A DNA stretch of 64,000 nt from the NCBI GenBank assembly GCA_030430205.1, contig JAUIGE010000018.1, positions 1 through 64,000 of the forward strand, in the 5' to 3' direction. The notes beneath the pieces were generated by a model. That model was not told the DNA's origin, ran no database searches, and saw nothing but the letters and a program-made list of their open reading frames with translations. Source of the DNA: Bacteroidia bacterium (GTDB lineage: Bacteria; Bacteroidota; Bacteroidia; J057). Position 1 is the stretch's first letter; the number at the start of each line of letters is the position of its first letter. Shown here piece by piece: positions 43,582 through 60,050 of this stretch. The position numbers and the translations under genes were made by a program.

Positions 43582-44937
43582 GTGGGCAAAGAACACACGA
43601 AAGATCGCCTGGACAAAGTTGAGCGCGTAAAGCGCTTGATGAAGTACCCGAATGCACGTATTCGGAGGCTTTTCCTGAATTTACATGCCACAGAAGTTGC
43701 CAGTGTCCTCGAAGATTGTGATGAAGAGACCCAACAGCGGATTATCCGGCAGTTGCCTACTAACTTTATCTCAGATGCCCTGGCAGAGATGGATGAGGAT
43801 ATGCGTCCCGGGCAATTGCTGCAGCGATTGCATCCCCGCGCAGCGGCGGATTTGGTCATGGAGCTTGACCCGGATGATGCGGCAGACATCCTCGCACAGA
43901 TAGAAGAACCTTACAAAGAGCGCATTCTATACCACGTCCCCGATGATGAGGAAGCGGTATTGAATAAACTGCTCGAATATGACGAAGAGTCTGCCGGGGG
44001 CCTGATGAATCCTGAGGTTGTTTTTGTTAAAGAAAACATCACCACCTTTCAGGCGATCCAGGATGTAGCCCGCCAATCCGAGGAGATAGAAGACTTTTAC
44101 AGTATATATGTGGTCAATGAAGAAGGGAAACTGACGGGGTACCTTACCTTTAAATCTCTTTTTCGCAACAAAAGAAATACGCTGGTGAAGGATGCCATGG
44201 ATACAGATATTGTATCTGTAACAGCAGAAACGGATCAGGAGGAAGTCGGTAAAATGATGGCGCAATATAACTTGCCCACACTCCCTGTGGTCGATAGTGA
44301 ACTCCGGCTTCTTGGCCGCGTCACCTTTGATGACATCATGGATGTCATGGAGGATGAAAACACAGAAGACCTCTTGAATTTTGCGGGTGTATCTGATGCC
44401 GCCAACCTGCGCGGAGGCTGGGCAGAGACGGTCCGTAGCCGGATTCCCTGGCTGCTGGTCAACCTGGTCACCGCTTCGATTGCGGCATTTACCATATCGC
44501 AGTTTGAAGAGACAATCAGCGCGATTACGACCATTACTTTCTTTATGCCTATCATCGCCGGCCTGGCCGGCAATGGCGCCACCCAAACCCTGGCGGTCAC
44601 CATCCGCCGTATCTCTACCGATGGCATTCCCCGAAACAAAGCCACCTCCGTTATCCTCAAAGAGATCATTACAGGCGTCATCAACGGCCTGATCATCGGC
44701 GCGCTGGCGTCTATCCTGGCTATCGCCTCCAATACCAATCCTATGATTGGACTGGTCGTATTTATGGCCATGCTTTGCAACCTCACCATCTCTGGTTTCG
44801 CGGGATCTTTCATCCCCATCACCCTGGAACGGCTGGGTGTTGACCCTGCGGTTGCTTCTTCTATTTTGATCACGGCTTTCACCGATATTATCGGTTATAT
44901 CCTATTATTTGGTCTGGCCACCCTCATTTTACTCTAA
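43582..44937 (+). CDS. mgtE: Magnesium transporter MgtE
   Basis: The protein (451 residues from GTG 43582) has the N-terminal superhelical domain with LDPDDAADILAQIEEP and LLEYDEESAGGLMNPEVV, then two CBS domains (about 130-250) that sense magnesium. The five-helix membrane channel carries the MgtE pore motif AGLAGNGATQ. It lets magnesium into the cell and closes when cytosolic magnesium is high. The start is uncertain: TTG 43519 gives a longer frame, but a promoter-like box lies there; ATG 43639 is the first ATG in frame. Confidence 0.93.
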   Translation: MGKEHTKDRLDKVERVKRLMKYPNARIRRLFLNLHATEVASVLEDCDEETQQRIIRQLPTNFISDALAEMDEDMRPGQLLQRLHPRAAADLVMELDPDDAADILAQIEEPYKERILYHVPDDEEAVLNKLLEYDEESAGGLMNPEVVFVKENITTFQAIQDVARQSEEIEDFYSIYVVNEEGKLTGYLTFKSLFRNKRNTLVKDAMDTDIVSVTAETDQEEVGKMMAQYNLPTLPVVDSELRLLGRVTFDDIMDVMEDENTEDLLNFAGVSDAANLRGGWAETVRSRIPWLLVNLVTASIAAFTISQFEETISAITTITFFMPIIAGLAGNGATQTLAVTIRRISTDGIPRNKATSVILKEIITGVINGLIIGALASILAIASNTNPMIGLVVFMAMLCNLTISGFAGSFIPITLERLGVDPAVASSILITAFTDIIGYILLFGLATLILL

Positions 44938-56344: not shown

Positions 56345-57463
56345 TTATACATGTAATTCAAATTCCCGGGCCGCGATGATTTCTCCATTGACCTGAATCT
56401 CAATGGTGTGCGTACCGGGATAATATACCCGCGTTGTGACGGGTTTGATAGCGTGATTTTTTTGTATCAACTGGTCTTTGCCCGGGCCCAGCTGTTTTTT
56501 CGCAAGTTTAAAAACTTTTGGAGAAGTACCGCCATTGGCTTTAACATGATGGATGATATAATCTATCATCAGGTTTTGTGGGCGTTTGCTTTTGCTTCTC
56601 AGCATAAAGTTGATGGAAATTTTTTCGCCCAGCTTGATTTCTTCCGGATTTACCTCAAAATCGTGAATCTCGATGGCAACTTTGCCATAGCCCAGGATGG
56701 CCAATGCGCGGGCATCGCCCGCTTTCACAAGGCCCCGCAGGGCATGCCCAGTGATCCATTGTACCTCCTCAGAAGCATCTTCGCTCCATTTCTCCAACAG
56801 TTCCATGACCATCTCAGGATGATCTTTGCTGAGGTCATTGAGGTTGTTGGCGACGGATCGCCTGACATATAGCTCAGGATCGTCCTTGAGCATTTCCAAA
56901 AGGGGAATGATGGGGCTCGGATCTTCGATCAAAAAATGTAGCCGCATGCCCCAGGGCAGGCGCGTACGTGTGCCTTCACTCACCAATCTGCGCACATGCA
57001 GGTTTTCATCCTGTGCCCAGGTTTTAAGCACTGCAAACATCTGCTCAGGGTATTTTTTGAGAAAAGGCCTGATGGCAAATTCTGCGCTGAAGCGCTGGGT
57101 GATTTCATACATGCCTTTCAGCGATGCTTCCAGCTCCTCTACGCCATGATCTTCGATAAACTGGGCGATAGGCCAATAGCCGAAGCCATTTTCGGAGATG
57201 CTGCGATCTGTCTGCAAGGGCGCGCCCAGCGTTTTGAGCAGCACCTGCTGCGCTTCGGGATAAGGATCGGGCAGGTTGTTGCGCAGCGCACGGGCGATCA
57301 GCTGCACACGGCCTTTCAGCTCCAGCTCTGGCAATTCGCCATTCACTTCTTCCAAAAAGCGCTGAAGCGCAAAGGAAGGATGCGCGGCTTTCACCTGCTC
57401 ACCCAGGTTCAGGACACTGGTTTCGTTAAAATGGTCTTTAAAAAGGGTCGATTCCTGACTCAT
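56345..57463 (-). CDS. AlkD-like HEAT-repeat DNA alkylation repair protein
   Basis: The 372-residue protein is a chain of HEAT helices (about 30-270) with segments typical of the AlkC/AlkD DNA glycosylase family: WPIAQFIEDHGVEELEASL, DENLHVRRLVSEGTRTRLPW, DDPELYVRRSVANNLNDLSK. A C-terminal beta domain of about 100 residues follows (EIHDFEVNPEEIKLGEKI... ending FELHV). It should recognise alkylated purines; the extra domain matches the longer AlkC-type members. Three bases separate its stop from the rlmB start, so the two are co-transcribed. Confidence 0.88.
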   Translation of the reverse strand: MSQESTLFKDHFNETSVLNLGEQVKAAHPSFALQRFLEEVNGELPELELKGRVQLIARALRNNLPDPYPEAQQVLLKTLGAPLQTDRSISENGFGYWPIAQFIEDHGVEELEASLKGMYEITQRFSAEFAIRPFLKKYPEQMFAVLKTWAQDENLHVRRLVSEGTRTRLPWGMRLHFLIEDPSPIIPLLEMLKDDPELYVRRSVANNLNDLSKDHPEMVMELLEKWSEDASEEVQWITGHALRGLVKAGDARALAILGYGKVAIEIHDFEVNPEEIKLGEKISINFMLRSKSKRPQNLMIDYIIHHVKANGGTSPKVFKLAKKQLGPGKDQLIQKNHAIKPVTTRVYYPGTHTIEIQVNGEIIAAREFELHV

Positions 57464-57497
57464 GCTGCAAAAGTATAAAAATTGATGATGGTTAATG

Positions 57498-57567
57498 GGA
57501 AAAGGGAGAAGAGAGATTAGAGAAGAGAGAAGAGAGAAAAGAGATTAGAGAAAGAGAATGGAGAATT
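57498..57567. repeat. Heptanucleotide tandem repeat, 10 units (AGAGAAG family), upstream of the beta-lactamase-fold gene
   Basis: Ten 7-bp units in register (GGAAAAG, GGAGAAG, AGAGATT, AGAGAAG twice, AGAGAAA, AGAGATT, AGAGAAA, GAGAATG, GAGAATT). It ends 25 bp before the start codon of the beta-lactamase-fold gene and is purine-only on the plus strand apart from scattered T. Confidence 0.88.
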
Positions 57568-57592
57568 GTTGTGTATTTCGTAAGTTGATCTT

Positions 57593-58615
57593 ATGGCGTG
57601 GAAATCCTGTTTTTCATATCTGCTTTTTGTCGCTTTTGGTTTTTGTCTGGTATTTTCTCAAAATCATGATGCTGAGATACAGAAGATGCTAGACAAGCTA
57701 CATGCCAAGAATCAATTCAATGGCGCTATACTTGTCATTGAGCAGGGAAAGTGCGTGTTTAAAAAGGCATTTGGTGTGCAGGAGTATGGCAAAAAAGAAA
57801 GCCTGACTATCCATACGCCTTTCAACCTTGCTGAAGCCTCCGCAGGCTTCACTTCCATGGCTATAGCCATTCTACAGGATCGGGCCTTGCTCGATTGGGA
57901 CGATCGCATCGCCCGCTTCCTGCCGGAATTACCCTACCAAAACATCCGCATCCGCGACCTCCTTTGGCACACATCAGGCCTGCCCGACTATTTTTTGCTC
58001 TGCGAAAAATACTGGGACCGCCAGCGGCCTGTCAACAACCACGATCTGCTCGACCTGCTACGCATCCACGAGCCGCGCCTAAAATTCCCGCGCGGCATGA
58101 ATTTCGAATTCAGTAACATAAATTATGCCCTTCTTGCCCTCATCGTTGAGCGGGTGAGCAAACAGCCCTTCTCGACATTTCTCCAAACAGAAATTTTCGA
58201 CCCGCTGGAGATGCAGGACGCCTTTGTCTTTGGAAGCAGAGAAGAAGAAAAGGATTTCCCCAGTACTTACCTCGACGGGATCGTCGGTGACAAAGGGATT
58301 TATGTCTCCATAGAAGACATGCACAAGTGGGTCAATGCGCTGCAAAATCATCGCTTCCTGTCAGAAGCTGGCGAGGCCAGCTACCTGGAAGCTGGAAGCC
58401 TGGCCAATGGCATGACGACATATTATGCGATGGGCTGGGTGCGGATAGATTCTCCCGCAGTGGTTTTCCACGATGGTGCCTGGAGAGGCTTTCACAGCAC
58501 CGTGGTTTTGTACACACAAAAAAAACACGCGATCGTTCTGCTTTCAAATAGCAGCGATCGCGTGGTAAGTATTCAAAGGCGGATAGCTAAAATTCTCGAA
58601 GAGAGGAGAGAGTAG
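57593..58615 (+). CDS. Beta-lactamase-fold serine hydrolase homologue with ruined active site
   Basis: This 340-residue protein has a signal peptide (MAWKSCFSYLLFVAFGFCLVFSQ) and the class C beta-lactamase/penicillin-binding fold: FNLAEASAGFTSMAIAI, LLWHTSGLPDYF, NFEFSNINYALLALIVERV, FHDGAWRGF. In active relatives the first segment reads FNLASVSKQFT. Here the nucleophile Ser is Glu81, the base Lys is Ala84 and the YxN tyrosine is Phe173; only the HxG motif (His293-Gly295) survives. It is therefore predicted to be a pseudoenzyme, perhaps a periplasmic binding protein. Heptamer arrays flank the gene on both sides, and the second overlaps its stop codon. Confidence 0.88.
   Translation: MAWKSCFSYLLFVAFGFCLVFSQNHDAEIQKMLDKLHAKNQFNGAILVIEQGKCVFKKAFGVQEYGKKESLTIHTPFNLAEASAGFTSMAIAILQDRALLDWDDRIARFLPELPYQNIRIRDLLWHTSGLPDYFLLCEKYWDRQRPVNNHDLLDLLRIHEPRLKFPRGMNFEFSNINYALLALIVERVSKQPFSTFLQTEIFDPLEMQDAFVFGSREEEKDFPSTYLDGIVGDKGIYVSIEDMHKWVNALQNHRFLSEAGEASYLEAGSLANGMTTYYAMGWVRIDSPAVVFHDGAWRGFHSTVVLYTQKKHAIVLLSNSSDRVVSIQRRIAKILEERRE
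57832..57851. repeat. Perfect 8-bp hairpin on the SxxK-equivalent codons
   Basis: TGAAGCCT (57832-57839) and AGGCTTCA (57844-57851) flank the loop CCGC. The stem and loop encode residues 81-86 (EASAGF), exactly where relatives have the catalytic SVSKQF. Confidence 0.9.
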
Positions 58616-58636
58616 AGAGCAGAGAATAGAGATTGT
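58602..58636. repeat. Heptanucleotide tandem repeat, 5 units (AGAGAAG family), overlapping a stop codon
   Basis: AGAGGAG, AGAGTAG, AGAGCAG, AGAATAG and AGATTGT run in register and contain the TAG stop (58613-58615) of the beta-lactamase-fold gene; the last coding residues (EERRE) derive from the array. It is of the same family as the array in front of the gene. Confidence 0.88.
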
Positions 58637-58637
58637 C

Positions 58638-58678
58638 CTCATCTGCTAATCTGCAAATCCTCTCATCTGCTAATCATC
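58638..58678. repeat. CTCATCTGCTAATC repeat abutting the LVIVD gene stop
   Basis: CTCATCTGCTAATC occurs at 58638-58651 and again at 58662-58675. The array ends directly beside the stop codon of the leftward LVIVD gene (58679). It is near-identical over 21 bases to 314-334. Confidence 0.8.
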
Positions 58679-59974
58679 CTATCTTTTCACCTCAATCTTG
58701 CTGAGCAAGCTGATATTATTCAAATCTGAATAATCATACTGATAAAATCCATCGGCTCCGATCATGAGCAAAATATCATTGGGCAGCGGAATCACATCCG
58801 TAGCCTGGATATTTTGGTAATGCTCAAGCTGGTTGTCGAGGAGACCCCAGTCGCTGGTAGCGTCAAATATCTTGAGTCCGGCATCGCCGTCGCAGATGAA
58901 GAGCGTTTTGTTGCGAATGCCGAGGCCATGTGGATTCTCGAAGTTGTACGAAGTGATCAGGCTGGGATTGGCCATATTGCTGATGTTGATGACATGCAGC
59001 AGGTTTTGGGAGCCGGGGCAACCGTTGCCGGTGCGCAAGGTTACATAGGCGCGATCGCCTTCGACAGCCACGGGGTCACAGTTGCGGGCATGTACAAACT
59101 CAGACACGAAAGTAGGACTTGCAGGATCGCTGATGTTGTAGATAAACATGCCTTGCTGAGAACCGATGAAAAGGTGGTCCTTGTAAGGGAAAATCGTTTC
59201 TATGCCAAAACCCACATCAAAGCGGCCATTCTGGGAGGGATTTGAGGGGTTGTTCAATCCAAAGTGGATGAGTTCCTCGTCGGTGACGGCATAGAGATTT
59301 TCACCTATGATGGTGAAGCGCGCCAAAGAACCGCCCAATCCGGGGCTGGTGGCATTGGTGAAATTGCCCTCAGATGAAGGTGCGCCAAAGTCATTGACAG
59401 CATTGGCAGCCAGGTCCACAGTAGCAAAGAAAACACCGCCACGGTTAGGGAAGCTCACATTACAGGCCACCACTTCGGTGACTTCTTCTTCATGCCAATT
59501 GCGCACGATGCCCAATGCCGGATCACCGACAAAGCCATTGTGCCAGTTGTCATAAGGAAAAACGTCTTTTTCACGGCCGACCTGTGATACAGAGGTGGGG
59601 TCGCTGATGTCTATTACCCAGAGATCAACATAGGAATCTGCGTACAGCATATTGCCTTTGACCGCGATGTCGCGGTTACCCGGTACGCTGATGAAAGAGA
59701 CGCGCTGTGGCGCGCTGGGATTGCTGTTGTCAATGATATGAATCCCTTCATTCAGCTCGCTGATAAAGATAAAATCATTGTAGAAATACATTTTTCCTGG
59801 GTTCTCCAACTCGCGTGCAGCCTCAGATTTTGCACGGGTGTTGCGAAGCTCGTCGAAGGAAATGTACTCAGGAAGGAGGGTGATGTATGTGACGGATTGC
59901 TCACATTTGTCCTGGATGCAGCCGCCTAGCAGCAGCACAAACAGACCGGTAAGTAGAAGCGTAAAATTTTTCAT
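58679..59974 (-). CDS. LVIVD-repeat lipoprotein
   Basis: The ATG at 59974 (or GTG 59983) starts a lipoprotein signal with LLGGCIQ; the lipid Cys is near residue 19. The rest is a beta-propeller of LVIVD repeats: GIHIIDNSNPSAPQRV, LWVIDISDPTSVSQVG, MFIYNISDPASPTFV, LLHVINISNMANP. This surface or periplasmic propeller is common in Bacteroidota and probably binds other macromolecules. The function is unknown. It stands alone on its strand. Confidence 0.85.
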   Translation of the reverse strand: MKNFTLLLTGLFVLLLGGCIQDKCEQSVTYITLLPEYISFDELRNTRAKSEAARELENPGKMYFYNDFIFISELNEGIHIIDNSNPSAPQRVSFISVPGNRDIAVKGNMLYADSYVDLWVIDISDPTSVSQVGREKDVFPYDNWHNGFVGDPALGIVRNWHEEEVTEVVACNVSFPNRGGVFFATVDLAANAVNDFGAPSSEGNFTNATSPGLGGSLARFTIIGENLYAVTDEELIHFGLNNPSNPSQNGRFDVGFGIETIFPYKDHLFIGSQQGMFIYNISDPASPTFVSEFVHARNCDPVAVEGDRAYVTLRTGNGCPGSQNLLHVINISNMANPSLITSYNFENPHGLGIRNKTLFICDGDAGLKIFDATSDWGLLDNQLEHYQNIQATDVIPLPNDILLMIGADGFYQYDYSDLNNISLLSKIEVKR

Positions 59975-60050
59975 GATAGACACACAATTAGAAATAAATA
60001 AAGCATTTGTTGTGTAGACGGAGCTGATCCCGCAGGCGCTGCATATTCTT

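Follow-up and report, generated by a model that had tools for sequence, protein, structure and literature searches.

Template switching at quasi-palindromes is already known, both in reporter systems and through the phylogenies of closely related strains. Small excesses of inverted repeats have already been reported in prokaryotes. The text of PMC8604942 considered here cites the quasi-palindrome correction model of Ripley (1982) and documents template-switch multinucleotide mutations in coding genes of yeast, where sites of this kind have shorter spacers and homogenisation of the arms can alter several adjacent codons. The locus described below resembles those yeast sites in carrying a short perfect inverted repeat with a short spacer in coding sequence. 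The yeast changes were, however, polarised with the use of close strains, whereas here a single ortholog of 45% identity was available and the changes are not those of one arm.

According to PMC4060949, Ladoukakis and Eyre-Walker (2008) proposed template switching as the cause of a small but significant excess of inverted repeats in prokaryotic genes. The survey in PMC4060949, in the portion considered, found coding regions to be generally normal and some genera to be extremely over-represented there. Both the repeat class of that survey (8-mer inverted repeats within 6 nt) and its proposed cause correspond to ours. The excess described here, in contrast, amounts to 4–5x in coding sequence and belongs to one genus with sampled relatives at ~1x, and it is unranked relative to the extreme genera of the survey. 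Template switching is also described as creating and maintaining RNA hairpins in RNA genes (PMC8794818, in part), likewise through a DNA-level process that yields perfect stems and compensatory changes; our case differs in that it concerns protein-coding sequence and shows no sign of selection on RNA structure in the genome with the larger excess. In the portion of PMC10434271 considered, repeats were counted without a codon-preserving null, for which reason that work was set aside. We found no report of such an excess in this bacterial group among the matches listed from openly licensed literature.

The gene and the hairpin at its former catalytic motif

The window (the whole stretch of DNA that was analysed, 64,000 nucleotides in length) contains a gene for a 340-aa protein that matched the PF00144 profile over near full length (E 2.8e-46; residues 30–328, profile positions 2–318 of 329) and whose nearest solved structure by sequence was Flp (4gdn, E 1.1e-23). 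G000 denotes the genome of the window and G001 the one same-genus genome found, referred to here as the sister genome. The features of the locus are listed below.

56345-57463, minus strand: conserved upstream neighbour, 372 aa; same-genus counterpart of 55% identity in the same place in G001
57593-58615, plus strand: gene for the 340-aa PF00144 serine beta-lactamase/DD-peptidase-like protein without catalytic Ser, Lys and Tyr (open reading frame and profile match)
57832-57839, plus strand: left arm of the hairpin, TGAAGCCT; third base of codon 80, codons 81-82 and first base of codon 83
57833-57850, plus strand: former SxxK segment, now EASAGF (ELSKQF in the ortholog)
57840-57843, plus strand: loop CCGC, the last two bases being bases 1-2 of codon 84
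57844-57851, plus strand: right arm of the hairpin, AGGCTTCA; third base of codon 84, codons 85-86 and first base of codon 87
58109-58111, plus strand: codon 173, Phe replacing the motif-2 Tyr (FSN); Tyr in the ortholog and in 66/66 others
58469-58477, plus strand: motif 3, HDG, residues 293-295, retained (HDS in the ortholog)
58679-59983, minus strand: conserved downstream neighbour, 434 aa; same-genus counterpart of 58% identity in the same place in G001

An active PF00144 hydrolase is expected to show a domain-wide profile match and an HxG motif 3, both of which the window protein shares with serine beta-lactamase/DD-peptidase-like enzymes of the family. It is unlike these enzymes in that the nucleophile and base of SxxK have been replaced (EASA) as has the motif-2 Tyr (FSN), and it lacks 19 residues that its ortholog has. 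On the basis of these replacements, the 340-aa protein is a probable pseudoenzyme. The 19 ortholog residues are absent at ~58264, just before YLDG. GA-rich low-complexity tracts (agagaagagag...) lie on either side of the gene, at 57500-57565 and 58598-58632.

The preliminary description had placed a perfect hairpin exactly on the destroyed motif, and both the sequence and a repeat search bore this out: TGAAGCCT-CCGC-AGGCTTCA, with 8-nt arms and a 4-nt loop, occupies 57832-57851 and, as had also been stated, encodes EASAGF (codons E81-A82-S83-A84-G85-F86, 57833-57850). The derived sequence at this position is a perfect inverted repeat, as is expected for a template-switch mutation. As a 32-nt single-stranded DNA, the hairpin was the minimum-energy fold (–7.4 kcal/mol, z –3.7, with 0/200 shuffles as good), and an 80-nt RNA around it folded with a z of –2.2. 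No Rfam family reached its gathering score in 57400-58800, and no terminator-like site was found at 57832-57851. A repeat with 8-nt arms at the motif was present in 2 of 68 homologs, the window gene and its ortholog, with the remaining 66 reaching an arm of 6 at most. The repeat of the ortholog has a different sequence, TTGGAGAG-CTCTCCAA, and is a 16-bp perfect palindrome centred 6 nt (two codons) upstream. Given this second repeat, of a kind carried by 0.6% of same-size segments in G001, some link between hairpins and this motif may exist.

An excess of short perfect inverted repeats in two genomes of the genus

In coding sequence, we counted inverted repeats whose spacers measured 0-5 nt, and within-gene synonymous-codon shuffles supplied the expected counts. 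In a sample of 512 CDS (701,544 nt) from the 7.24-Mb G000 genome, repeats with arms of exactly 8 bp numbered 321 versus 59.0 expected (5.4x), the highest of 10 shuffles giving 75. The corresponding counts were 855 versus 207.2 for arm 7 and 2039 versus 766.8 for arm 6, and the excess of arms of at least 6 amounts to approximately one per 315 bp of coding sequence. The arm-8 excess was first seen in one G000 sample (168 versus 33.0) and was repeated in a second (153 versus 22.0). The window alone (39 CDS, 53,880 nt) contained 41 arm-8 repeats versus 5.2 expected, as well as 7 longer repeats versus 2.3. The intergenic excess in the same genome was smaller, at 2.0x for arm 7 and 2.8x for arm 8, these values referring to dinucleotide shuffles and not to the null used for coding sequence.

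The sister genome showed a lower excess, with 94 arm-8 repeats versus 43.8 expected in 622,551 nt of coding sequence (2.15x). Four same-family genomes pooled (G003, G005, G007 and G009, of the eleven family genomes available besides G000 and G001) gave 17 versus 23.3, and four same-class genomes pooled (G301, G305, G337 and G398) gave 31 versus 26.7. With 72–83 kb of coding sequence each, these eight Bacteroidia genomes taken singly had ratios of 0.36–1.79, the top value being that of G398 (14 versus 7.8). Escherichia coli K-12 gave 4 versus 4.1 in 79,353 nt of coding sequence. Both genomes of the genus show the excess and none of the nine others sampled does; it concerns complementary as opposed to mirror repeats, and the repeats have no common sequence.

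These counts bear on whether the motif hairpin arose by chance, through point substitutions that occurred independently while the segment was relaxed, a reading that we consider possible but doubtful. When the window gene was shuffled synonymously, leaving its protein unchanged, a repeat with arms of at least 8 and a spacer of 0-5 appeared at the motif in 167 of 5000 shuffles, and about one-fifth of the arm-8 hairpins in G000 are expected by chance (59.0 of 321, or 7.6 of 39 at spacer 4). Such a repeat occurred in 1.5% of 27-nt coding centre windows in G000, compared with 0.6% of same-size segments in G001. The motif hairpin is beyond codon-shuffle chance, yet ordinary for its own genome. Against the chance reading, about four-fifths of the arm-8 hairpins in G000 are in excess (321 versus 59.0), which makes a non-chance origin likelier for any single one of them. 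Given this ratio and that for its own spacer length (39 versus 7.6 at spacer 4), the motif hairpin probably belongs among the excess hairpins of the genome.

Template switching and selection as possible sources of the excess

Mirror repeats were not in excess in G000 (0.97 and 0.90x in two samples, in which inverted repeats stood at 3.97 and 4.53x); their ratios in G001 were 1.05 and 1.25x. The G000 excess was confined to short spacers, fading by ~9 nt, and each of the three codon-pairing classes showed it (5.4, 4.1 and 4.2x). HIP1- and REP-like elements are iterated palindromes, and no arm sequence shared in the manner of such palindromes was found, the commonest arm occurring twice among the 244 repeats of the first G000 sample. 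The excess in G000 fell from 5.0x for perfect arms to 2.6x with one mismatch and 1.4x with two, so that perfect close inverted repeats are more in excess than near-perfect ones, without an accompanying mirror excess. Repeats with one internal mismatch did not favour wobbles in that genome (G-T, 2.05x; A-C, 2.53x; other, 2.10x). The absence of a mirror excess, of a common arm sequence and of a G-T preference in G000 together speaks for a DNA-level process. In G001, on the other hand, G-T led (1.96x, versus 1.66x for other mismatches and 1.49x for A-C), as it also did, on small counts, in two comparison genomes, so that G000 alone gives a clear wobble result. Its proteins have a slight tendency of their own towards hairpins, since 143.8 and 125.6 repeats arose in synonymous shuffles compared with 128.2 and 99.2 in codon-order shuffles; the values for G003 were 20.0 and 23.0. 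Close direct 7-mer repeats were also raised in G000 (1.66 and 2.32x) and likewise in G003 (1.58x).

We propose that short inverted repeats are made or perfected genome-wide by a process acting on DNA, which among the genomes sampled was seen in this genus alone. Its products would have arms of ~6–10 nt and loops of mostly 0–5 nt, and the process would not be tied to loss of function. We infer replication template switching at quasi-palindromes, an established mechanism for such an outcome, as the likely mechanism, and as the probable maker of the motif hairpin. We lean slightly towards the view that such a hairpin-perfecting mutation process is unusually active in the genus as a natural mutator state, strong in one species and weaker in its sister, with no excess in the four other family genomes sampled. 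Should this be so, the genus would be a place to measure the effect of template switching on protein evolution.

The two genomes of the genus were compared at 73 reciprocal protein pairs of at least 45% identity. Amino-acid identity was 0.650 inside G000 hairpins and 0.649 in their flanks (n = 357), with no raised change at the hairpins. The excess of arms of at least 7 was similar in the low, middle and high thirds of protein identity (4.16, 4.38 and 3.94x). Changes the size of an arm would be expected to be removed from conserved proteins, and this equality therefore counts against template switching, as do the lack of a one-arm footprint, the lower intergenic excess and the reversed wobble order in G001. 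With regard to the footprint, one arm was conserved and the other changed in 12 of 142 hairpins (arms of at least 7), which is not above the 125 of 1587 for sham sites, although divergence may erase such a footprint. Arm asymmetry |L–R| was likewise not raised (0.199, versus 0.226 at shuffled sites; arms of at least 6).

The main rival to template switching is that the hairpins have been selected as functional DNA or RNA structures, for mRNA stability, nucleoid structure or a hairpin-binding protein. The equal excess across conservation classes favours such selection and, since the excess was measured against synonymous shuffles, codon choice accounts for most of it. A weak covariation, which counts in favour of template switching too, points in the same direction, hairpin pairs covarying with the ortholog in 67 of 150 cases compared with 152 of 459 sham complementary pairs (arms of at least 7; Fisher p 0.014). 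A few hairpins (6 of 143, arms of at least 7) have an axis common to the two species. Column shuffles averaged 0.6 of 40, but they contain fewer hairpins than the real sequences, so that this control is not clean and flatters sharing. A rotation control, which ignores shared codons and is also not clean, gave 0.45 expected versus 7 of 143 shared within 2 nt. G-T wobbles are in addition somewhat favoured in G001 (1.96x versus 1.49x for A-C). Selection on RNA would, however, predict a G-T preference in G000, the genome with the strongest excess, where none was seen (2.05x versus 2.53x for A-C). The hairpins also have no common motif, most are unshared with the sister species (pairing in the ortholog was 0.477, versus 0.453 for sham complementary pairs; arms of at least 6), and no Rfam match was found around the gene. 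We therefore regard selection as unlikely. Taken together, the comparisons with the ortholog genome suggest that the hairpins turn over, arise largely through codon choice and seldom alter proteins. The window open reading frame at 43639-44934 (plus strand) and its counterpart L153 share a hairpin with identical 8-bp arms, ATGACATC, and a 3-nt loop, located at the same codons in the two species.

Order of the catalytic losses

The G001 ortholog encodes a protein 45% identical to the window protein and is syntenic with the window gene, lying between the same two neighbour genes. Its motif codons are GGA GAG CTC TCC AAG CAA TTT (G-E-L-S-K-Q-F), compared with GCT GAA GCC TCC GCA GGC TTC in the window. 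The catalytic Ser is already Glu in the ortholog, whereas Lys, Gln and the motif-2 Tyr are kept, with YSH at motif 2 and HDS at motif 3. In a tree of 68 homologs, restricted to open frames of 250 aa or more with an E of 1e-25 or better, the window gene and the ortholog formed a 100/100 clade with a stem of 0.54. L043 was left out of the tree, its contig lacking the motif, and L012 was misaligned at the motif in one homolog alignment. SxxK, the motif-2 Tyr and HxG were each present in 66/66 of the other homologs, Y-x-N in 64/66 and the exact SVSKQF in 22/66. By parsimony, Glu had replaced Ser before the split of the two species, and the window lineage alone would later have exchanged Lys for Ala, Gln for Gly and Tyr for Phe. 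The active site was thus most likely lost stepwise and not by one hairpin-making accident, and the gene suggests a stepwise route to a pseudoenzyme in which the nucleophile goes first and the base and tyrosine afterwards.

Further relatives were sought in several ways. A search of genome contigs with the window protein matched ten stretches, none of which was a closer relative, and a search with the alignment of the two orthologs gave five loci, the best of which (L060) was taken to be the G001 ortholog again. No further member of the Glu81 clade was found among the loci examined in family, order and class searches, with at most four candidates scored per genome in the class step and loci given for part of its matches. 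In searches with the flanking genes outside the genus, flanks and homologs were on one contig in G003, hundreds of kilobases apart.

The preliminary description had tentatively explained the hairpin and the loss of function by one event, an intramolecular template switch that copied one arm from the other and removed the nucleophile and base together. In its favour are the exact position of a perfect hairpin on the motif, the plentiful occurrence of such hairpins in the genome and the sequence of codons 85 and 86, GGC TTC, which is the reverse complement of left-arm GAA GCC. The ortholog, however, has Glu81 together with intact Lys84 and Gln85, so that Ser went first, and the model would survive only if Glu81 had arisen twice independently. 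That model had anticipated differences confined to one arm and equal to the reverse complement of the other, yet the residues differ from those of the single ortholog at codon 82 in the left arm, at codon 84 in the loop and its edge, and at codon 85 in the right arm. A change of Val to Ala at codon 82 requires at least one change in the left arm. Whichever Lys and Gln codons were ancestral, two changes in the loop (bases 1-2) are required for codon 84, and three in the right arm for codon 85. With changes spread over both arms and the loop, copying of a single arm cannot explain them; left-arm copying would account at most for codons 85-86 (three changes at 85, and TTC at 86). A single switch of this kind is accordingly very improbable. 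A case in which relatives carry the same residues without the hairpin, which had been named as counting against the model, was encountered in part: Glu81 occurs in the ortholog without the window hairpin, though with another repeat. The other case so named, codon differences outside the arms, was likewise encountered in part, since the changes are not limited to one arm. Template switching itself fared better as a genome-wide process, in view of the excess of short perfect repeats, than as the cause of the loss at this locus, where the changes were probably stepwise and fall in several segments.

The reading that we favour, with moderate confidence, is that the motif hairpin is one instance of a template-switch perfection process of the genus acting on a segment already without Ser. 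Under this reading, the catalytic Ser would already have been Glu in the ancestor from which both known species of the genus descend, with Lys and the motif-2 Tyr lost later, and the hairpin would have formed on a segment predicted to be already inactive, codon 85 and codon 86 TTC having probably been matched to the left arm. The ortholog repeat TTGGAGAG-CTCTCCAA could, by the same process, be the origin of the Glu codon in the ortholog.

Two other routes to the window codons were considered. Inversion of the loop, described in yeast in the text of PMC8604942 considered here, was rejected, given that inverted CCGC yields TGC GGA (Cys-Gly) and not Ser-Lys. Compensating frameshifts, in which a 2-nt deletion is joined by an insertion of GC (2 nt) that makes the hairpin perfect, could convert the Lys-Gln codons AAG CAG to GCAGGC. 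This is kept as an idea only, because the ancestral codons are unrecoverable, those of the ortholog being AAG CAA, and because any GCA-Gly pair yields GCAG; codon reconstruction here relied on one ortholog whose synonymous sites are too diverged to help.

An assembly or sequencing artefact is a very improbable explanation of the excess: both genomes are drafts (80 and ~130 contigs), but both show the excess and nine others do not, the repeats were counted inside long open reading frames, and their sequences are unrelated. A genus at 4–5x beside sampled relatives at ~1x offers a contrast for seeking the genetic cause of hairpin-making mutation, and with the same contrast the share of the hairpin process in codon and amino-acid evolution could be measured. 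The genes sbcD, xseA and recJ encode exonucleases linked to hairpin or single-strand processing. All three are present in G000, with no exonuclease defect seen. In the family genomes searched, sbcD was found above the cut-off in G000 and five others and was not found in G001; its loss was rejected as the cause of the excess, given that G000, with the stronger excess, has the gene. The xseA product (exonuclease VII large subunit) matched PF02601 in two pieces, with profile positions ~180-233 missing, in G000, G001, G003, G005 and G007, the split match thus also occurring in relatives without the hairpin excess.
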